A DNA stretch of 64,000 nt from an uncultured Flavobacteriales bacterium (GTDB lineage Bacteria > Bacteroidota > Bacteroidia > Flavobacteriales_G > Salibacteraceae), in NCBI GenBank assembly GCA_913020435.1, contig CAJVZZ010000004.1, positions 62,001-126,000 on the forward strand, written 5' to 3'. Under the pieces are notes generated by a model that did no database searches, was not told where the DNA came from, and saw only the letters and a list, made by a program, of their open reading frames with translations. Both the position numbers and the translations under genes were made by a program. Positions 34,043 through 48,144 of this stretch are shown here, in pieces; within the stretch, counting starts at the first letter, position 1; the number at the start of each line of letters is the position of its first letter.

Positions 34043-34050
34043 TACTTTTG
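34043..34050 (+). promoter_or_regulatory. -7 box TACTTTTG of the cobalamin operon
   Basis: TACTTTTG fits TAnnTTTG and sits just upstream of the riboswitch aptamer, so transcription likely starts about seven bases later. No clear TTG box at 17-23 bp was found. Confidence 0.55.
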
Positions 34051-34054
34051 CAGC

Positions 34055-34262
34055 GCTATTGGTTCTCAACTTGGAATTCACCAAGAAGAGTGAAAAGGGA
34101 ATTCGGTGTAACTCCGATACTGTTCCCGCAGCTGTAAGGTTCTATAAAGGCTTTTGTCTACAGTCACTTCCGAGAAAAGGAGGGAAGATGCAAAAGTGAA
34201 CCGAGTCAGAAGACCTGCCACCGGCTATTGTGCAAGGAAGTTCCGGGATAGGATAACCTTCT
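34055..34262 (+). ncRNA. Cobalamin riboswitch
   Basis: The conserved B12 aptamer segments appear in order: GAAAAGGGAATTCGGTGTAA, CTCCGATACTGTTCCCGCAG, CTGTAAGG, later GGAGGGAAGATGC, and the B12 box AGTCAGAAGACCTGCC (about 34204-34219). Downstream, GGAAGTTCCGGGATAGGATA can pair with the upstream region as the expression platform before the ATG at 34283. It should repress the operon when adenosylcobalamin or another corrinoid is abundant. The 80-codon frame across this region (33957-34199) is a by-product. Confidence 0.95.
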
Positions 34263-34282
34263 AACTGTATTATTCATATAAA

Positions 34283-35809
34283 ATGAAGAAGAGAATTATT
34301 GGATCATTCCTAACCTTAGGATTGATATGTGCTATTTCAATAGCAAAAGGACAAACAGTTTCAAATTTTGAAAACGTTTTGACTGGTGGAGATTCCACTT
34401 GGAACGGTTCAGATTTAAGCAGTGGAGTAGTAAACGGAGCAGGTTTCTTCCTTAACGATCATAATCCTAGATGGGGGAGTTGGAGTGGTTTTTCAATATC
34501 TAAAACCACAGATACCGTTACTGGAGGTTGGGCAAATCAGTATTCATCAATTTCTGGAAATGGAGCAAACAACTCAGCTGCATATGCGGTTTCCTACAGC
34601 AATTCAACTGTTATGTTTACACATTCTGCCGGTGGAGATTCTATTGAAGGATTGAGTATTAACAATTCAACCTACGCATACAGAAACATGCAAACAGGAG
34701 ATGCATTCACAAAGAAATTTGGAGGAACGACGGGCAACGACCCTGATTTCCTTACAGTTACTTTTTTTGGTTATGGTGCTGATTACGAGCTGACTGATAG
34801 TGTTGTTTTCTACTTGGCAGACTTTAGGGATGCGAATAATGCCAATGATTATTTGGTAAAAGATTGGACATGGGTAGACCTGTCTTCTTTAGGCCGTATC
34901 CGATATTTAGATATGGAGTTTAACTCTTCTGATGTAGGTCAATTTGGGATTAATACACCTACTTACGCTTGTATCGATAGCCTAGTTTATAAAAACTCTT
35001 CAACTTTATTTCAACCTTTAGCCTCAGAGCTTGATTATCAAGTTGGTTATAATTCTGCAGTTGCTAATTATAATGTTACTAAACACAGTTTAAATCCTGG
35101 TAATACAGTTGCTGCTTTAACTGCAACACTTGTTGATCAGCCTAGTAATGGAAAGGCGGTTTTGATAAATGATTCATTGATCTCTTACAAACCAACTGCT
35201 AGTTTTAATGGATACGATACTGTTTGGTTTTCGATTTGTAATCAGGGAAACATCTGTGATACAAGTTGGATTGAATTTTTGGTTAATGATGCTCCAATTG
35301 CTGCTAACGATACTTTTACTAGAGGTGGAGACGGGGTGCTTGAATTGGATATCTTGGCTAACGATTGGGATGAGCAAATCGCTAACTTAAGAGTCAGTTT
35401 ATTGGATACTACAAAAAATGGCAATGTATCTATAGTTGCCAATAAACTAGAATACATAGCGAATACCGATTTTGAAGGTTTAGATACTTGTAGTTACCTC
35501 ATTTGCGATCTTTATGGGTATTGTGATACTGGCTATGTGTATATGAAGATTCAGAATGTAGTAGGTGTCTCTGAGATTTCTATTCGTTCAATTTCATTTT
35601 ATCCTAATCCAACTAACGGTATTGTTAGAATTAGTGGGTTATCTGATGAAATTAGTGCTGTCAAGGTTATCAATATTCGTGGAGAAGCCATCGAAATTCC
35701 TTTGAATACTAAAAATGAAGTAGATTTATCAGACGCTAGCAGTGGTGTTTATTTTATGACTGTAACAACGTCGAACAAAACGATAACCAAGCGCATTATT
35801 AAACTGTGA
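34283..35809 (+). CDS. DUF4465 surface protein with T9SS sorting domain
   Basis: A 508-aa secreted protein. Signal peptide (GLICAISIAKGQ) is followed by a DUF4465 domain (about 25-235): FENVLTGGDSTWNGSDLSSG, WGSWSGFSISKTTDT, GGWANQYSSISG and LADFRDANN. Two Ig-like cadherin-type units follow (about 250-425; NDAPIAANDTF, DILANDWDE). The C-terminus is a T9SS type A sorting domain starting ISFYPNPTNGIVRIS (about 435) and ending TITKRIIKL. It is the first gene after the cobalamin riboswitch, so it probably binds or scavenges corrinoids at the surface; Bacteroides encodes surface B12-binding proteins in similar loci. Confidence 0.9.
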   Translation: MKKRIIGSFLTLGLICAISIAKGQTVSNFENVLTGGDSTWNGSDLSSGVVNGAGFFLNDHNPRWGSWSGFSISKTTDTVTGGWANQYSSISGNGANNSAAYAVSYSNSTVMFTHSAGGDSIEGLSINNSTYAYRNMQTGDAFTKKFGGTTGNDPDFLTVTFFGYGADYELTDSVVFYLADFRDANNANDYLVKDWTWVDLSSLGRIRYLDMEFNSSDVGQFGINTPTYACIDSLVYKNSSTLFQPLASELDYQVGYNSAVANYNVTKHSLNPGNTVAALTATLVDQPSNGKAVLINDSLISYKPTASFNGYDTVWFSICNQGNICDTSWIEFLVNDAPIAANDTFTRGGDGVLELDILANDWDEQIANLRVSLLDTTKNGNVSIVANKLEYIANTDFEGLDTCSYLICDLYGYCDTGYVYMKIQNVVGVSEISIRSISFYPNPTNGIVRISGLSDEISAVKVINIRGEAIEIPLNTKNEVDLSDASSGVYFMTVTTSNKTITKRIIKL

Positions 35810-36789
35810 AGTTATTAATAGCATTTTTTGGACTTTTTTGCTCCGTAGGACTTTCCTACGGGCAAGGTCCTTATGCTCCTAATTCAGAAACAGCAGGCAC
35901 TGATGCTTTGCACTATACTAATAACAAGTTCATATCGTGGGCTTCAGATATTAAGGTAATTCGCGGATATCAGGATATAGCAAACAAGTTTCTTGGTACA
36001 GTCAACTTTGGCGAACCTATAAATGCTGTTGGAATGAGTAACAAAAGTGTTGTCAGTCTTGGTGATAGTGGTGTGGCTACTGTTTATTTTGAAGGGTATG
36101 TTTTAAATAAATCAGGTCCGGATTTCGCTGTTTTTGAAAACAGCTTTAATCATGAGTTTTTGGAATTGGCTTTTGTTGAAGTTAGTAAGGATGGAACAAA
36201 TTTTATACGTTTCCCAGCTTCTAGTGAAACCAGTTCAGTTACTCAGGTCGGTTCCTTTGATTTGTTAGATGCTACCAATATTGACAATTTAGCGGGCAAA
36301 TACAAAGTCCAATATGGAACGCCATTTGATTTAGACGATATTGGCATGGATTCCATACGTTATATCCGGATTGTGGATGTTGTGGGAAGTATCGATTCTA
36401 CAATTGGTTCAAAAGACGCTAAAGGTCGAATGATAAATGATCCATATCCAACCGATTTTCAAAACAATGGATTTTATACTGGAGGCTTTGATTTAGAGTC
36501 TGTTGGTTTGATTAATTACGAAGGTGAGATCTTCCTGGGAACTAATGAATTATCGGTACAAAAATCGAGAGTAAAAGTATATCCAAATCCTGCGATTTCT
36601 GCTTTAACGATTACAGTTGAAAAACAATCTGAAATTCAAATTCACGATATAAGTGGAAAATTGTGGTTTTCTCAGAGTATTAACTTCGGGTCTAATAACT
36701 TAGAATTAAGTGATTTGCCTCGAGGTTTGTATTCAATTTCTGTCCTAAACGAAGAGGAACATTTTGTTTCAAAATTGGTATTGCAATAG
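35806..36789 (+). CDS. T9SS-sorted surface protein of the B12 operon
   Basis: A 327-aa secreted protein with a signal peptide (FFGLFCSVGLSYGQ). The body has the pattern VSLGDSGVATVYF, SGPDFAVFENSFNHEFLELA, FVEVSKDGTNF, DLDDIGMDSIRYIRIVDVVG and GGFDLESVGLIN, a beta-sandwich layout shared with PEP-CTERM-like and discoidin-like surface proteins. The end is a T9SS type A sorting domain (VKVYPNPAISALTITVEK to SKLVLQ). It starts at GTG 35806, overlapping the TGA of the previous gene. Its place between two B12-related genes suggests corrinoid binding; family function unknown. Confidence 0.85.
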   Translation: MKLLIAFFGLFCSVGLSYGQGPYAPNSETAGTDALHYTNNKFISWASDIKVIRGYQDIANKFLGTVNFGEPINAVGMSNKSVVSLGDSGVATVYFEGYVLNKSGPDFAVFENSFNHEFLELAFVEVSKDGTNFIRFPASSETSSVTQVGSFDLLDATNIDNLAGKYKVQYGTPFDLDDIGMDSIRYIRIVDVVGSIDSTIGSKDAKGRMINDPYPTDFQNNGFYTGGFDLESVGLINYEGEIFLGTNELSVQKSRVKVYPNPAISALTITVEKQSEIQIHDISGKLWFSQSINFGSNNLELSDLPRGLYSISVLNEEEHFVSKLVLQ

Positions 36790-38656
36790 CCTAAGCAAGG
36801 CAACACTTTGTATTGGTCTGCTTTTCGGCAGCCAAGTAGGTCTATTTGCACAAAACGATACCGTTATATCTTCCAGCCTGAATGAATTCGAAGTGTTGGG
36901 TCAGATTAAACCTGATCCGGTATTTAAGAATTTGGTATTGGATACCAGTTTGATTGAGGCAATGCCAGCCTTTTCAATTGATCAAATTTTGAAATATCAA
37001 ACCAATTTGTACGTCCGAGATTATGGTTCTGGAGCATTGAGTTCGGTATCTTTTCGCGGCTATAGTTCGCGACATACTGCAGTTTTTTGGGAAGATATGC
37101 CAGTTAGCAGTAGTATGAACAAAACGTTCGACGGCGGATTGTTTCCTACGTTCATGACCGAAGAAGTCTCTATTCAGTATGGTGCTGCTGGAATGATAAA
37201 TGGGTCTGGTGGATTGGGTGGAACCTTGAAATTCAATGCTAATCCAGATTTTAAAAAAGATGAAGTCTTGAAGTTTGAGCAATCAATTTCAACTGTAAAC
37301 AATGCTTCAACGGGAATAATGTATCGTCGTTCCAATGATAAGTTTGTGACCTCGACTCATTTTACCGCACAATATGGGGCCAATGAATTCTCTTATCAGA
37401 ACCCCAGTGGGCAAGAGGTGTTGAAACAACGAATGTTTGGTGCAGGAAATCAAATTATATCAGGGCAGCAGAAATTCGCGTGGAAATTGAAGAAAAATGG
37501 TGTCTTAAAATGGAATTCCTTTCTGCAGTTGGGAGAACGTCGATTGCCGCACTCGACATATCAGAAACTAGTTACTGAGACGCAAAAAGACAAAACACTC
37601 TTGTCGAATCTGAATTATTCTAAACAATTTGGAACAACTCAGCTAAAGGCCGTTGCTGGGTTTAAAGCCAGTGAATTACAATACCAGAATGATGCAATAG
37701 GTATAAATGATATAGGATCAGAACGGAATGCTTTTGCTCAATTTAGAGTGAAGTATTGGTTGTTTCAAAATCTGAAAATGGAAAATGCAGTGTTGTACAA
37801 TCACTCTTTTGCAAATCACCCTGAGTATAATGGTTGGCAACAGCAAATAGACTTGCAGCACATTCAGCAAGCATCCTACGAGTGTAAGCAATGGCTGTTT
37901 CATGGGCTAATCAAAACACAAGTAATCGACGATAATTTTCTTCCTGTATTGCCTTCTTTGGGAGCGAGATGGAAGTCTGAGAAATCGTGGTTGGTAGTTA
38001 AAGGAAACGGAGCCTATCACGCTATGGCTCCTTCTTTAAATGATCTGTATTGGAGTGTGGGTGGGAATCCGGACTTAAAGTCAGAGAAGGGTTGGACGAG
38101 TGAGTTTAGTCTGAGTTCGGAAAGAGATACGGGTTTCAATTATAGTATTACAGGTTTTTTAAGCAGTATAGAAAATCGTATTTTGTGGCAGCCGCAGTTG
38201 AGTGGAGTATGGATTGCTAGTAACGTATCGAGTGTTACAAATACTGGAATCGAATCATCAATCTCCTATAAAAAGCTACTGTGGAATGCGGTTAAAAGTA
38301 ACGTTATTTTGAATTACAGCTATAATTCTGCTTTAGATAGTGCCGGGAATCAATTGGCCTATATTCCATCGCAAAGAGTGTCAATGCAAGGTCTGTTGGA
38401 ATGGCGAAATATTGGAATTACTTATGGCCATCGCTTTACCGAAAAACGCTTTTTGAATAACTTTAATACCGCCTATTTACCTTCGTTTTTTAATGCAACT
38501 GCAGGAGTGAACTACACCTTGGATACTGGTAAAGAAGGGCGTTTGGTTTTGGGTTGTCAGGTGGATAATTTATACAACGAACCTTATCAAGAAGTTGCAA
38601 ATCGACCGATGCCAAATCGTTACTTTATTTTTAACGTAAAATTCATTAAATCATGA
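36764..38656 (+). CDS. TonB-dependent receptor, BtuB-like
   Basis: A 630-aa outer-membrane receptor. The signal peptide (TLCIGLLFGSQVGLFAQ) starts some 14 residues in, so the true start is uncertain: TTG 36764 overlaps the previous gene by 26 bases. The plug follows (about 45-165, VRDYGSGALSSVSFRGYSSRH), then the barrel with aromatic strand ends, closing VLGCQVDNLYNEPYQE and the final YFIFNVKFIKS. It has no carboxypeptidase-like N-domain, unlike SusC receptors. Context (cobalamin riboswitch, BtuG-like lipoprotein coupled downstream by ATGA) makes corrinoid uptake the likely task. Confidence 0.9.
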   Translation: MFQNWYCNSLSKATLCIGLLFGSQVGLFAQNDTVISSSLNEFEVLGQIKPDPVFKNLVLDTSLIEAMPAFSIDQILKYQTNLYVRDYGSGALSSVSFRGYSSRHTAVFWEDMPVSSSMNKTFDGGLFPTFMTEEVSIQYGAAGMINGSGGLGGTLKFNANPDFKKDEVLKFEQSISTVNNASTGIMYRRSNDKFVTSTHFTAQYGANEFSYQNPSGQEVLKQRMFGAGNQIISGQQKFAWKLKKNGVLKWNSFLQLGERRLPHSTYQKLVTETQKDKTLLSNLNYSKQFGTTQLKAVAGFKASELQYQNDAIGINDIGSERNAFAQFRVKYWLFQNLKMENAVLYNHSFANHPEYNGWQQQIDLQHIQQASYECKQWLFHGLIKTQVIDDNFLPVLPSLGARWKSEKSWLVVKGNGAYHAMAPSLNDLYWSVGGNPDLKSEKGWTSEFSLSSERDTGFNYSITGFLSSIENRILWQPQLSGVWIASNVSSVTNTGIESSISYKKLLWNAVKSNVILNYSYNSALDSAGNQLAYIPSQRVSMQGLLEWRNIGITYGHRFTEKRFLNNFNTAYLPSFFNATAGVNYTLDTGKEGRLVLGCQVDNLYNEPYQEVANRPMPNRYFIFNVKFIKS

Positions 38657-39699
38657 GGTTGTGTGTTTTACTTACAGTGACACTTGTGGTTTTTTCCTGC
38701 AAGAAAGACAAACCTTTTGATCCTCAATACTTAGTGGAAGAGGTTACTGAGGTTGATACTAATGCAACCCATATATTTATTATCAATGAAGGGAATTTTA
38801 CCTTTTCAAATGCATCGGTCACAGACTACGTAATTGAAACAGCAACAACCCGTCAAACTGCCTTCCAGCAGTCCAATGTAAATGCCTTGGGAGATGTCGC
38901 TCAATCGTTGTTGATTCATAAAAAAACAGGATATCTTTTTGTCAATAATTCCAATGAGGTTGTAAAAGTATCCTTGCCAAGTATAAAAGTTCAAACTAGA
39001 GCGGCCATTCAAAGCCCGAGGTACGGTCTCATTACTTCGAATGGGGAGTTGTGGGTAACCTCACTCAACAAAAAAGACGTTTTCGTTTTGGATACATCGG
39101 ACTTAAAAATCACGAAAACATTAGAAGCCTCTGATTGGTTGGAGGAGTTGGTGGAAGTCGATAATCATGTATTCGCTTGTAACGTCAATGAAAATACAGT
39201 GGATGTCTACTCACTCGAAGGAAACAAGATACAATCAATAGCAGTAGGAAAGCAGCCACAGAGTATCGTTCTAGATAGTGACGGAATGCTTTGGGTATTG
39301 TGTGATGGTGGTTTTAATCCTAGGGATAGAGAAAAATCTCGACTGCTTAGAATCGATCCAATTTCATTTTCAATAACTTTTAATTATGAGTTTGAGGATA
39401 TTGAACATTCGCCTACACGTCTGAATTACAATGTAACTAACCAAAGACTTTACTTTATCAACCGAGCGGTTTATTCAATTGCTGTTGATTTGAGTGAAAC
39501 AATCCCAAGTGAAATATTCAAACAGGAGGGGGCTAATTTCTATGGGTTAGGTATAGATGCTCAATCTGGAAATGTTATAGTTACGGACGCCAAGGATTAC
39601 AGCAAGAAAGGGATAGCTTATGTTTTAGATCCTTCAGGTCGATTATTGTACGACTTTGAAACGGGAGTTATTCCGCAGGATGTTGTGGTTTATAAATAG
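38653..39699 (+). CDS. BtuG-like surface beta-propeller lipoprotein (DUF5074/YncE-like)
   Basis: A 348-aa lipoprotein (LTVTLVVFSCKKDKP, lipidated Cys about 16). The rest is a seven-bladed-type YVTN propeller: HIFIINEGNFTFSNASVT, LLIHKKTGYLFVNNSNEVV, KTLEASDWLEELVEV, VFACNVNENTVDVYSLEG, VGKQPQSIVLDSDGMLWVLC and GLGIDAQSGNVIVTDAKDY. In Bacteroides, BtuG is a surface propeller lipoprotein that binds cobalamin very tightly and hands it to BtuB. This protein has the same layout and neighbourhood, and its ATG overlaps the receptor stop. Last gene of the riboswitch operon. Confidence 0.88.
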   Translation: MRLCVLLTVTLVVFSCKKDKPFDPQYLVEEVTEVDTNATHIFIINEGNFTFSNASVTDYVIETATTRQTAFQQSNVNALGDVAQSLLIHKKTGYLFVNNSNEVVKVSLPSIKVQTRAAIQSPRYGLITSNGELWVTSLNKKDVFVLDTSDLKITKTLEASDWLEELVEVDNHVFACNVNENTVDVYSLEGNKIQSIAVGKQPQSIVLDSDGMLWVLCDGGFNPRDREKSRLLRIDPISFSITFNYEFEDIEHSPTRLNYNVTNQRLYFINRAVYSIAVDLSETIPSEIFKQEGANFYGLGIDAQSGNVIVTDAKDYSKKGIAYVLDPSGRLLYDFETGVIPQDVVVYK

Positions 39700-41434: not shown

Positions 41435-43783
41435 ATGAAATTATTTTACTCAATTCCAATCTTATGTTTTTTATTAAGTAGTTCTAACCTTGAAGCTCAA
41501 GATTTACCCTTAGAATTCAATTATTCATCAGACGGTCATAAACTCATAGTTGGAAATACGGTGACTACCGGTTTTTATGATGAATCCGAAATTGATACCA
41601 TCTTTCTTCAATTTTCTCAAACTAATTATTGGACCTTACTGGAACAGAATTATGAGGATAAAATCGAAATACCTGCAACTCTAACTCATAATGGAGTTGT
41701 TTACGATAGTGTGGGAGTTCGATTTAAGGGGAATACGTCCTACAAAAGATTAAGAAATTCAGATAAAACGTCTTTTGCAATATCAATGGACAGCTATATT
41801 GGAGGGCAAGATCTCGAAGGATATGAGTCTTTAAATTTAAGCAATGCCTTTCAAGATGAAACGGCAATGCGTGAGGTGCTTTATTTGAATGGAATAAGGA
41901 AGCACATTGCCGCTGCAAAGGGTAATTATGTTCAGTTGTTTTTAAATGGTCAAAATTGGGGAGTTTACCCTAATATCCAAGCACTCAACAAAGAACATGT
42001 GGGAGAATGGTTTTTAAATAATGATGCAACACGCTGGAGGTGCGAGGAAACTGTTGGAGCCGCAGGTAACCCTAGATTTAATGTTGGTTTTTCTTCATTA
42101 AATTACTTAGGCGATGCTGCTTCTGACTATACAGACCATTATACGCTTAAGAGTGCAGACAAAGCTGACCCTTGGTTGGATTTAGCCGTTGCATGCAGTC
42201 TAATTGATAAAACCACTTCATCAGCTGGAGTTAAAGCTCTCATAGAAAAATTTGATTTAGATCAAACCCTATGGTTTCTGGCTTCAGAAATAATTTTTAC
42301 CGATGATGACGGATATGTCTTTAAAGGGGGAATGGATTACTATGCATATTTTGATTTAGCCACAAATAGGTTGTTGCCAATCGAGTATGATGGCAATTCA
42401 TGTATGGCTGCGAATAAAGCTACTACATGGTCTCCGTTTTACAAAGAAACTGATGCCAATTTTGTTTTAATGAATAAATTAATGAAAGTTCCTGAGATTC
42501 GTCAACGGTATCTAGCTCATTTTAGAACCATGTTGAATACTGCTTTTGATACTACTAATTTGTTATTAAAAATAGATGAATATTCAGCATTAATGAGTCA
42601 GCGATATGCCAATGATCCAAAGGCAATGTCGACTGCTCAGCAGCACAATGCTGAAATTGCAAACTTGAAACAGTTTGTTCGAGATCGAAGTAATTATTTG
42701 TGGTCGAATGCAGAAGTGATGCAGCAAAGTATTGAAATTTCTAATGTATCTCATTTTGTAAACAATGTAGAGTGGGCTGATCCAGAGAATAGTGAGCAGG
42801 CAACAGTGGTTGCTACTGTTTCGGCGCCCAATCAGGTTTCTGCAATGAATTTAAATTACAGTACTGGCTTAGCCGGTCATTTTACCACCTTAACGATGTA
42901 TGATGATGGTATTCATGGTGATGGTACTGCTTCTGATGGCCAGTATGGGGCTTTTATCCCTGCTCAAATCGGTGGCCAATTTGTTCGATACTACATAGAA
43001 TCTATTTCTAACAATGCGTCAAACAGCAGGTCTTATCTGCCGGCTGGGGCAGAGCATGAAGTTTTCATTTACCAAGTTAAAGCTGGAGCTAAAGTTGAAA
43101 GTGACGTTGTAATCAATGAAATAATGGCTTCTAATAAAGTCTCATTTCCAGATCAAGATAATGAATACGATGATTGGATTGAGTTGTACAATAATGGATC
43201 TTCTTCAGTTGATATTTCTGGATATTTTTTATCGGATAAAAGTGTTGAAATTTTACAATGGCAGTTTCCTCAGGGAACAGTCATAGATGCTGGCGATTAT
43301 TTAATTGTCTGGTGCGATAACGACCTAGATCAAAAAGGACTGCATGCTAATTTTAAATTGTCTGCTTCTGGTGAAACAGTTTATCTAAATACGGATAAGG
43401 GAAATGTTGCAGATTTTGTGAATTATAGCGAGTATAAATCTGAATACTCATACTCTAGAGTACCAAATGGGACGGGAAATTTTGAATGGCAACATCCGAC
43501 ATTTGAAGAGTCTAACGAAACGCCTTTGACTGTTAATGATTTGCTCCAGTCTGAGGGAGTGTTTAGTGTTTTTCCTAATCCCACAAATTCAGTGTTTTCA
43601 GTTGTTGTGAGCCAGTCTTTAGAAAATGAAATATTAAAGGTTTTTAATATTGAAGGAAAGCTAATGGCAGAAGAGTTGGTTTCGGGTCAAAAATTAGAAA
43701 TCAATGTATCTGATTGGGAAACTGGTATATATATCATTAGACTAAGCAATGGCCAAGCAAAGCGTCTTGTTGTAAATCCTTGA
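41435..43783 (+). CDS. CotH-kinase-family protein with lamin-tail and T9SS domains
   Basis: A 782-aa secreted protein. Signal peptide (FLLSSSNLEAQ) is followed by the CotH region (about 75-420): VGVRFKGNTSYKRLRN, SLNLSNAFQDETAMREVL, FLASEIIFTDDDGYVFKGG and RLLPIEYDGNSCM. A lamin-tail domain comes next (about 555-680: VVINEIMASNKVSFPDQDNE, DISGYFLSDK, YLIVWCDNDLDQ). The C-terminus is a T9SS domain (FSVFPNPTNSVFSV, end KRLVVNP). B. subtilis CotH phosphorylates spore-coat proteins. It shares the lamin-tail domain with the head gene of the VTC operon 22 kb away, and CotH and VTC genes are often adjacent elsewhere. Activity here is inferred from family. Confidence 0.92.
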   Translation: MKLFYSIPILCFLLSSSNLEAQDLPLEFNYSSDGHKLIVGNTVTTGFYDESEIDTIFLQFSQTNYWTLLEQNYEDKIEIPATLTHNGVVYDSVGVRFKGNTSYKRLRNSDKTSFAISMDSYIGGQDLEGYESLNLSNAFQDETAMREVLYLNGIRKHIAAAKGNYVQLFLNGQNWGVYPNIQALNKEHVGEWFLNNDATRWRCEETVGAAGNPRFNVGFSSLNYLGDAASDYTDHYTLKSADKADPWLDLAVACSLIDKTTSSAGVKALIEKFDLDQTLWFLASEIIFTDDDGYVFKGGMDYYAYFDLATNRLLPIEYDGNSCMAANKATTWSPFYKETDANFVLMNKLMKVPEIRQRYLAHFRTMLNTAFDTTNLLLKIDEYSALMSQRYANDPKAMSTAQQHNAEIANLKQFVRDRSNYLWSNAEVMQQSIEISNVSHFVNNVEWADPENSEQATVVATVSAPNQVSAMNLNYSTGLAGHFTTLTMYDDGIHGDGTASDGQYGAFIPAQIGGQFVRYYIESISNNASNSRSYLPAGAEHEVFIYQVKAGAKVESDVVINEIMASNKVSFPDQDNEYDDWIELYNNGSSSVDISGYFLSDKSVEILQWQFPQGTVIDAGDYLIVWCDNDLDQKGLHANFKLSASGETVYLNTDKGNVADFVNYSEYKSEYSYSRVPNGTGNFEWQHPTFEESNETPLTVNDLLQSEGVFSVFPNPTNSVFSVVVSQSLENEILKVFNIEGKLMAEELVSGQKLEINVSDWETGIYIIRLSNGQAKRLVVNP

Positions 43784-45861: not shown

Positions 45862-48144
45862 CTACCGAATTACCAATTTTCTGGTTTCCGTTCGTTCACC
45901 AGCACTCAACTCGACGAAATACAAACCGCTAGCCAGTTCCTCGGTATTAACCGAAGTGATTTGATCGGTCAGTAATTGTGTAAGAACCTCTTTACCCGAA
46001 CAATGGAAAACCTTAATTGAAACTGTTTCTTGTCGTCCAATATTTATTTGAATTTCGCCACTAGCTGGGTTAGGGTAGATCTGAACATTGGTCAATTGAA
46101 CAAATTCAGCTAAGGAAACCGGTTCTTTTTCTTCTTCCTTAAAGGTGAAATCTACCACTTCAAAATCATCGAAGTAGAATCCATCACTTTGCACGCCAGC
46201 ATCAGAAGTTAGCTCAAAACGAATTTTTATTTTTCGACCTATGTATTGATCAAGATCGATTTCCTTTTTTGTCCAATGTTCGTGATTGGTGTAAGTTGCC
46301 AAAGTGTTCCAGTTTGTTCCATTTGTAGAAACTTGAAAATGAACATTATCAAAGGACTCAAAGGATCGTTTGGTATTAAAAGTAGCATATGGTTTGGTCG
46401 CATTCGTTAAATCAACATCGTTTTTGAGGTTGATTACTTCGTTGCTTGATTTAGAGTAGTTACCATATCTAGAGTCGCTAAATGCAAACTTTCCGCTTTG
46501 ACTCTCTATAAAAGTGGTGTCCCATGAAGAAGCACTCCAATTGGTCATTCCTTGTTCTCCATTATCTGTAAATAGGGTTGTTGTTTCTCCTATTCGAATC
46601 GATTTTTCCTTTATCGAAGTCTCAAATCCATCTTCTGTAACACTAACACTTAACGATAATAAGTCACCAGATTTTGCATTAGGATTCACCAAAAAACTAA
46701 ACTCATGAGTTGCAAAACTACGAGGTCCAATTTTCGCCTCATTTTGTACATCAACTATCGGAGTAACATTAGTAGAAGTTGAAGTCATTTCTATAGACAC
46801 ATTGGTTGCCTCTAATTCTAAACCTCGATTTTTTATTCGCGTTCTTATTTTGAGCGTATCTCCAGGTTTTACTCCACCTGAGTTCAGAACAACAAATTCA
46901 TACAGTTTGGGAGCAGAACCTGAAACATGAGAAATATATTTCATTGCGCCTAAAAAATTCTGAACGGTAGAGCAATATTCTGATTGAGGAGGCCAAAAGC
47001 TACTTCCAATTTCAGGCGTTAAGGTATAAATGCCGTCATCATGCATAAAATGTCGGGTAGTGCCGCAAGATGTATAATTGAGCATTTCGAAAGTTGTCCC
47101 AAATCCATCGAAGGTATTATTGATAAATTCGGAAGAGAATTCAGCATACGATTCGTAATCTTCATTTGGTAACTTGCAACCTGGAGCAATCAGGAATTTC
47201 TGACCATAGCTGTGGCAAGAAAAGGCAATGCTTGGCTTGATTTTCTTTACATAATCTCGTACCGCCTGCGTTTCTGGTTCAGAAAAGGCACTTGTACCAT
47301 GGTAACTGTTTGATGCAGGATTTGAACTTGCTCCAATACTGTTGCCAAATGAACTGCTGTAATTCCTATTCAAATCAACACCATAAGATGCGCTATTACG
47401 TCGTCTGTTTTTCCGCCACAACCCACCGCCATTGGGGTCAATTATTTCGTTATAGACATATCCATCAGGATTTACTACAGGAATAAAATGTATTTCTCTA
47501 TGATCGACCAAGTAAGTTGCCTCAGCATCAGTTCCGTAGTTTTCTAATAACCACCACATGTAGTAAAGCAATGCTTCCATGGACATAGGTTCTCTGGCGT
47601 GGTGCAAGGCATCAAAATAGGTAGTTCCTTCAGTTGCACTTTCGTCTAAGGTTGGGTTGTCTGATATTTTAACAGCATATATGGCTCTGTTATCAATGCT
47701 GTTTCCAACGGAATCTTTTGCAGAAATAAGAGCAGGGTAGAGCAGTTTCATGGAATCCAGTTGATCGATAACTTCTTGGAAAGTATGGTAATGCCCCATG
47801 CTACCGTATTTCAAATTGTCTAGTCCGCAAATGCCTCCAGCTCTTGATCCAGAGGTGTTGTTTTGACTGTTTTTTACAAATTCAGCTCGTACATCGTCCA
47901 CTATGATTTTGTACGAAATATTATGTGCTGACAGTTTGTCGATATCCGCAGTACTTAAGGTTGCATCAATGCTGTTCTTTTCGTTTTTAGAATAATGGTC
48001 AATGTCAATTCCCGATTGAATGAGTTTGTCCATAGTTTCTTCTCCACTCAAATAGATACGGACCTCGGAATGTACCTCACTTTGGGCTATAAGCAGGGAA
48101 GAGGACAGCAGAAGAGAGAGGAGTAGATTAATTGTAATTTTCAT
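45862..48144 (-). CDS. Secreted M14 zinc carboxypeptidase with T9SS sorting domain
   Basis: A 760-aa protein with a signal peptide (LLLSLLLSSSLLIAQ). The catalytic domain (about 115-410) has zinc ligands HAREP (His and Glu, about 185-189) and His in FSCHSYGQKFL, the arginine GLWRKNRRRN, the LNRNY substrate motif, and the catalytic Glu in LTPEIGSS (about 375). A beta-rich region (about 410-670), including a MAM/discoidin-like ending YFDDFEVVD, follows. The end is a T9SS-A domain (VQIYPNPASGEIQIN to RKLVIR). The layout is that of carboxypeptidase T-like enzymes exported and attached to the surface. Confidence 0.95.
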   Translation of the reverse strand: MKITINLLLSLLLSSSLLIAQSEVHSEVRIYLSGEETMDKLIQSGIDIDHYSKNEKNSIDATLSTADIDKLSAHNISYKIIVDDVRAEFVKNSQNNTSGSRAGGICGLDNLKYGSMGHYHTFQEVIDQLDSMKLLYPALISAKDSVGNSIDNRAIYAVKISDNPTLDESATEGTTYFDALHHAREPMSMEALLYYMWWLLENYGTDAEATYLVDHREIHFIPVVNPDGYVYNEIIDPNGGGLWRKNRRRNSASYGVDLNRNYSSSFGNSIGASSNPASNSYHGTSAFSEPETQAVRDYVKKIKPSIAFSCHSYGQKFLIAPGCKLPNEDYESYAEFSSEFINNTFDGFGTTFEMLNYTSCGTTRHFMHDDGIYTLTPEIGSSFWPPQSEYCSTVQNFLGAMKYISHVSGSAPKLYEFVVLNSGGVKPGDTLKIRTRIKNRGLELEATNVSIEMTSTSTNVTPIVDVQNEAKIGPRSFATHEFSFLVNPNAKSGDLLSLSVSVTEDGFETSIKEKSIRIGETTTLFTDNGEQGMTNWSASSWDTTFIESQSGKFAFSDSRYGNYSKSSNEVINLKNDVDLTNATKPYATFNTKRSFESFDNVHFQVSTNGTNWNTLATYTNHEHWTKKEIDLDQYIGRKIKIRFELTSDAGVQSDGFYFDDFEVVDFTFKEEEKEPVSLAEFVQLTNVQIYPNPASGEIQINIGRQETVSIKVFHCSGKEVLTQLLTDQITSVNTEELASGLYFVELSAGERTETRKLVIR

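Follow-up and report, generated by a model that had tools for sequence, protein, structure and literature searches.

We analysed a window of 64,000 nucleotides from an uncultured marine Flavobacteriales bacterium (Salibacteraceae; assembly GCA_913020435.1, contig CAJVZZ010000004.1), in which a cobalamin riboswitch heads a series of four genes, each overlapping the next, here called open reading frames (ORFs) 1 to 4. The operon is a lipoprotein B12 capture system of the gut Bacteroides type in which two of the predicted binders have moved to the type IX secretion system (T9SS). What goes beyond published work is the second gene, ORF2, whose family we assign, from sequence profiles and structural models, as distant BtuH-like proteins. 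The features of the locus are the following.

34043..34050, + strand: -7 promoter box of the Bacteroidota type, TACTTTTG (predicted from a sequence match to TAnnTTTG)
34043..34236, + strand: cobalamin riboswitch aptamer RF00174 (covariance model; the match starts inside the promoter box)
34283..35809, + strand: ORF1, DUF4465 (BtuJ-type) domain, immunoglobulin (Ig)-like domain and T9SS type A sorting domain (Pfam/NCBIfam, phmmer)
35600..35800, + strand: T9SS sorting domain of ORF1, residues 440-506 (PF18962 5e-13, TIGR04183 8.5e-15)
35806..36789, + strand: ORF2, BtuH-like protein with T9SS type A sorting domain, GTG start (profile, reciprocal hidden Markov model, structure, context)
35863..36531, + strand: BtuH-like core of ORF2, residues 20-242 (AlphaFold2 model; best structure 7BIZ)
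36139..36147, + strand: codons for ORF2 Asn112-Ser113-Phe114, aligned to BtuH2 Asn399-Ala400-Phe401 (profile alignments)
36577..36786, + strand: T9SS sorting domain of ORF2, residues 258-327 (PF18962 3.3e-12, TIGR04183 1.4e-10)
36764..38656, + strand: ORF3, BtuB-type TonB-dependent B12 receptor (plug and barrel domains; PDB matches)
38653..39699, + strand: ORF4, BtuG-type beta-propeller lipoprotein with lipobox Cys16 (phmmer; lipobox read from the sequence)

The riboswitch, the receptor pair and the DUF4465 protein

The aptamer scores 96.4 bits against RF00174 (gathering score 31.5; E 8.6e-23), its match spans the complete model (1-189), and it is the single RF00174 in the whole genome (2.95 Mb, 98% complete). 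The call rests on the covariance model, since single-strand folding of the leader gave nothing distinctive (z -1.0). The first eight bases of the match, TACTTTTG, fit the -7 promoter consensus of Bacteroidota, TAnnTTTG (PMC9723704). The box recurs exactly and in the same place in two related loci (L032 and L033). The riboswitch RNA probably starts near 34055, just past it, which fits the start coordinate of 34055 that an earlier note on this DNA had given for the operon. Scans for sigma-70 promoters and terminators gave no match above chance. The first gene begins 46 bases 3' of the aptamer; ORF1 and ORF2 overlap in GTGA, ORF3 and ORF4 in ATGA, and, with the listed TTG taken as the start, ORF2 and ORF3 share 26 bases. 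The canonical riboswitch and the overlapping genes described in that note, in the order DUF4465, ORF2, BtuB-type and BtuG-type, are confirmed.

For ORF3, the PDB matches below 1e-6 are solely the Bacteroides BtuB-type receptors 8p98, 8p97 and 8bmx (best 3e-37), and the score against the proteobacterial NCBIfam model TIGR01779 is far below its cut-off. ORF4 matches the BtuG propellers 8bmx/8bmy and 3dsm in phmmer at 1e-43 to 1e-42 (8bmx 2e-43), contains DUF5074 (4.5e-14) and has the lipobox VFSC-KKD. As in the BtuB-BtuG complexes of gut Bacteroides (PMC10404256), receptor and propeller lipoprotein are products of adjacent genes, and we see no important difference between the two systems; ORF4 is a BtuG without the fused H domain. 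The host genome encodes B12-dependent methionine synthase, methylmalonyl-CoA mutase and an IcmF-like enzyme, indicating that the host uses B12.

In ORF1, DUF4465 covers residues 63-233 (E 1.6e-49; 169 bits versus a Pfam cut-off of 25) and the Ig-like domain is a Big_9 (7e-19), and phmmer retrieves the B12-bound structures 9hmu (1e-22) and 9fct (8e-18). The earlier note's picture of DUF4465 is outdated, given that B12 binding has been demonstrated for eight divergent members from distant bacteria, one of them a Fluviicola (PMC13398666). Tyr146 and Tyr245, the conserved B12-binding tyrosines of BtuJ1 (PMC13398666), align with ORF1 Tyr131 in the DE loop and Tyr228 in the HI loop (NTPxY motif). 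Because eight DUF4465 members bind B12 and both tyrosines are kept, we regard ORF1 as an additional member of an already known B12-binding family, and B12 binding by ORF1 itself is strongly predicted. With the very tight B12 binders BtuJ1 and BtuJ2, the DUF4465 proteins of B. thetaiotaomicron that act on vesicles away from the cell (PMC12751083), and with other DUF4465 proteins (9FCT, 9I2L, 9HMU), ORF1 has in common the DUF4465 domain, Tyr131, the NTPxY tyrosine and a riboswitch-led B12 locus. It differs in its added Ig-like and T9SS sorting domains, whereas the BtuJ proteins are lipoproteins.

ORF2 as a relative of BtuH

Outside its sorting domain, ORF2 has no accepted Pfam domain, and Pfam holds no model for the core. 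Searched against all PDB sequences, a profile of 16 ORF2 sequences matched BtuG1 (8blw_B, residues 430-497, inside the H domain) at 1.4e-5 and BtuH2 (7biz) at 0.09, while a 105-sequence profile matched 8blw at 5e-4, the next match being at 1.9. Comparison of ORF2 profiles with 11 BtuH domains in hhalign gave 1e-7 and 3e-6. When 3632 ORFs were searched with the ORF2 profile, the matches beyond its own family were BtuH proteins only; a BtuH profile, run over 100 ORF2 loci, returned the ORF2 genes only and no ordinary BtuH. By these profile searches, ORF2 occupies the place in its loci that BtuH holds in others.

Structure prediction, proposed in the earlier note and carried out here for ORF2, points the same way. 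The AlphaFold2 model of the core, made with 105 relatives, has a predicted local distance difference test score (pLDDT) of 94.9. Its best structural match is B12-bound BtuH2 (7BIZ; Z 12.6, 154 residues, 3.0 Å), followed by the BtuG1 H domain (8BLW; Z 11.2, 161 residues, 3.5 Å), and a separate, earlier model from 16 sequences again placed these two at the top. In BtuH2, Asn399 contacts the B12 phosphate and Phe401 lies below the lower base (PMC8941943); the equivalents in ORF2 are Asn112, kept in 105/105 sequences, and Phe114, kept in 100/105. Judged from profiles and models, ORF2 is a distant homologue of the BtuH B12-binding domain, and the homology, the gene context and the kept Asn and Phe suggest that it binds B12.

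Like the BtuH proteins of B. thetaiotaomicron (BT_1488, BT_1956 and the H domain of BT_1490; PDB 7BIZ, 8BLW), with which it shares a homologous domain, ORF2 is encoded beside BtuB and BtuG genes under a cobalamin riboswitch. Its core is shorter, at about 220 residues compared to 270-290; the segments bearing His476 and Tyr510/Trp511 are missing or unalignable, and the calcium-type DxNxNG loop and PKD/Ig domains are absent. Moreover, BtuH is a surface lipoprotein with a lipobox; ORF2 lacks one and ends in a T9SS sorting domain, which is why we term it BtuH-like rather than BtuH.

Of 296 genomes surveyed, 35 have ORF2 relatives, which fall into two subfamilies. The carriers of ORF2 include the cultured species Mariniflexile gromovii (L038) and Flavobacterium circumlabens (L104). 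A GTDB scan yielded at least 506 relatives; the best 80 of these, chosen by similarity to ORF2 and not at random, were taken as close loci (L032-L111), and the distant subfamily is represented by 20 loci (L129-L148). A B12 marker, defined as BtuB, BtuG, DUF4465 or a cobalamin riboswitch nearby, is present in 71/80 close and 19/20 distant loci, or 90/100 in total. The same-strand neighbours in the close loci comprise BtuG (54), BtuB (44) and a DUF4465 homologue (27), and a cobalamin riboswitch was found by motif or Rfam in 64/80; the motif had 0 matches in 640 kb of shuffled sequence. In the distant subfamily, BtuB and/or BtuG adjoins ORF2 in 19 of the 20 loci, and Rfam riboswitches were found in 7/9 and 2/4 of the loci scanned. 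The family that the earlier note listed as lacking an established role (35806-36789) is here identified as a distant, B12-linked relative of the BtuH domain. ORF2 (35 genomes) and BtuH (7 genomes) do not overlap among the 296, but the chance expectation is below one, so that this count is uninformative.

Several loci depart from the common arrangement. In L063 (4312-6093) and L108 (8815-10896), the ORF2 and DUF4465 domains are fused in one ORF, and in L053 (3229-10395) a riboswitch-led ORF of 2389 residues includes an ORF2 domain. A lone ORF2 lies directly 3' of a cobalamin riboswitch motif in L060, L064, L069, L070 and L099, with no BtuB or BtuG within the stretch examined. The ORF2 frame in four loci of the distant subfamily (L013, L019, L020 and L021) is open upstream through a short domain with a CCGNxCRHCP-type cysteine motif, possibly a fusion or an overlapping gene. 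Finally, a genome outside the ORF2 group (L114/L122) has three tandem BtuH-type lipoprotein genes followed by a lipoprotein DUF4465 gene.

Sorting signals and the predicted location of the binders

The host genome contains SprA (1e-153) and 121 T9SS C-terminal domains (CTDs) above the family cut-off, indicating that T9SS is a general export route of this bacterium. Both ORF1 and ORF2 end in a TIGR04183 domain above cut-off, have signal peptides as judged by eye and are without a lipid anchor; they are predicted T9SS type A cargo. The earlier note had pointed to T9SS sorting domains on two components of the operon, in place of the lipoproteins of gut Bacteroides, and this observation stands. 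The replacement applies to ORF1 and ORF2 but not to BtuG, which is still a lipoprotein, so that of the three predicted surface binders two are tagged for T9SS. The same division is seen across the 80 close loci. A T9SS domain is present in 25/27 linked DUF4465 proteins and in 73 of 78 counted ORFs for ORF2 itself; BtuG is a lipoprotein in 48/54 (lipobox by pattern).

Cargo with a type A CTD loses this domain by cleavage and is either fixed to surface lipid or released. We found no support for the further suggestion of the earlier note that the capture proteins are anchored through the gliding/secretion machinery; what remains of its interpretation is a riboswitch-led B12 capture operon with two T9SS-tagged components.

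PEP-CTERM-like ends replace the T9SS domains of ORF2 and DUF4465 in L055 (8926-10618, a Phycisphaerae-labelled contig) and that of ORF2 in L082 (2011-2901, a Verrucomicrobiaceae-labelled contig). It looks as if the surface or extracellular location is the common point, with the sorting tag following the lineage. An even phylum sample contained eight clear DUF4465 proteins, four with a T9SS domain and four lipoproteins, too few for a firm ratio. According to the published survey of DUF4465 (PMC13398666; published 2026), lipoproteins make up more than 70% of the family, and the remainder have periplasmic signals; the words secretion, type IX and sorting are absent from its text. Our literature search, which had most subscription journals outside it, turned up no publication that connects T9SS to BtuH or to the uptake of cobalamin.

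Near the operon, the window contains a further T9SS cargo gene, encoding a CotH/lamin-tail protein (41435-43783), and another sorting-domain match (45862-48144) in what appears by eye to be a zinc carboxypeptidase.

A proposed secreted B12-scavenging system and its alternatives

Starting from the riboswitch, the gene order, the domains, the sorting tags, the B12 linkage of the ORF2 family and its homology to BtuH, we consider it likely that the operon is a B12-repressed outer-membrane scavenging system, in which BtuB-BtuG works with T9SS-exported binders of the BtuJ type and BtuH-like type. Low cellular cobalamin would cause the riboswitch to permit expression of the four genes. BtuB and its lipoprotein lid BtuG would form the uptake channel, and T9SS would carry ORF1 and ORF2 across the outer membrane, where they may collect corrinoids outside the cell and hand them over to BtuG-BtuB. 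BtuJ and BtuH of B. thetaiotaomicron have been proposed to collect corrinoids and pass them on in this way; ORF1 and ORF2 would replace these lipoproteins, with a T9SS tag instead of a lipid anchor. ORF2 is then most likely a compact binder of the BtuH-like type that reaches the cell exterior via T9SS, not as a lipoprotein, and feeds BtuG-BtuB.

A number of observations weigh against this proposal. The sequence of ORF2 can be aligned to BtuH over only about 50-60 residues, and hhalign of the close subfamily to BtuH is weak (65%). A profile of close ORF2 relatives alone misses BtuH in the PDB, so that the distant subfamily is needed as a bridge. For four of the six polar BtuH2 contacts (His476, Tyr510, Trp511 and Trp577), the corresponding segments are either missing from ORF2 or unalignable, so that the corrin side of the pocket in ORF2, if it binds B12, must be built differently. 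A Gln is present at the likely equivalent of the ribose contact Gln333 in 40/87 close members. CBM32 lectins have the same fold as the ORF2 core, with Z around 10. With regard to context, 9/80 close loci have no B12 marker, some being short contigs and others placing ORF2 beside unrelated genes. A FecCD/BtuC-type inner-membrane permease (PF01032) was not found in the host genome, nor in that of a 96%-identical relative (L032); PF01032 is above cut-off in the ten other ORF2-bearing genomes tested, one match being partial.

A variant of the same proposal, which we hold as a tentative alternative, is that ORF1 and ORF2 are released as soluble protein "cobalophores" and later recaptured by BtuG-BtuB. 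Some T9SS type A cargo is released, and the two proteins are both without a lipid anchor, but type A cargo is often attached to surface lipid in other species, and the ligand could be lost after release into dilute water. The action of B. thetaiotaomicron BtuJ on vesicles off the cell (PMC12751083) would provide a parallel for release.

We consider it unlikely that ORF2 is part of the B12 system without binding B12 itself, as an accessory or docking protein. Such proteins exist: BtuL and BtuK2, from B12 operons of B. thetaiotaomicron, showed no cobalamin binding (PMC12751083), and the absence of several BtuH2 contact residues from ORF2 would be in keeping with this role. However, the kept Asn and Phe form the site for the phosphate and lower base, and the ORF2 profile matched BtuH genes but missed the ORF found in the position of BtuL in a Bacteroides-type locus, which led us to reject an identity of ORF2 with BtuL. 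Least probable is that ORF2 is a CBM32/F5-8 type C-like glycan-binding module, for instance one docking secreted proteins on surface polysaccharide: CBM32 modules do share its general beta-sandwich fold (Z up to 10.1, several Foldseek E values of about 1e-3), but BtuH2 and the BtuG1 H domain outrank all of them in both models and are the sole sequence-profile matches, and the gene context of CBM32 is unrelated whereas ORF2 is B12-linked in nine-tenths of its loci, so that this function was placed behind BtuH.

In a 2022 report, no structural homologues of BtuH were known. Through the ORF2 family, BtuH gains at least 500 relatives, from genomes with an unassigned gene in their B12 loci; the family also indicates that extra B12 binders can bear T9SS or PEP-CTERM sorting signals. 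It is conceivable, albeit rather speculative, that compact BtuH-like B12 binders such as ORF2 form a widespread class that has yet to be named, exported via T9SS or PEP-CTERM signals together with DUF4465 partners and partly released as cobalophores, in hundreds of species, mostly from Bacteroidota and other Fibrobacterota-Chlorobiota-Bacteroidota (FCB) lineages, with a few contigs labelled as Planctomycetota-Verrucomicrobiota-Chlamydiota (PVC). If true, B12 would be scavenged by secreted proteins, a strategy different from the lipoprotein-based one of gut Bacteroides. With this assignment, the way in which environmental Bacteroidota that depend on B12 acquire this scarce vitamin becomes testable, as does the question of whether captured B12 is held on the cell or binders are released into shared water.

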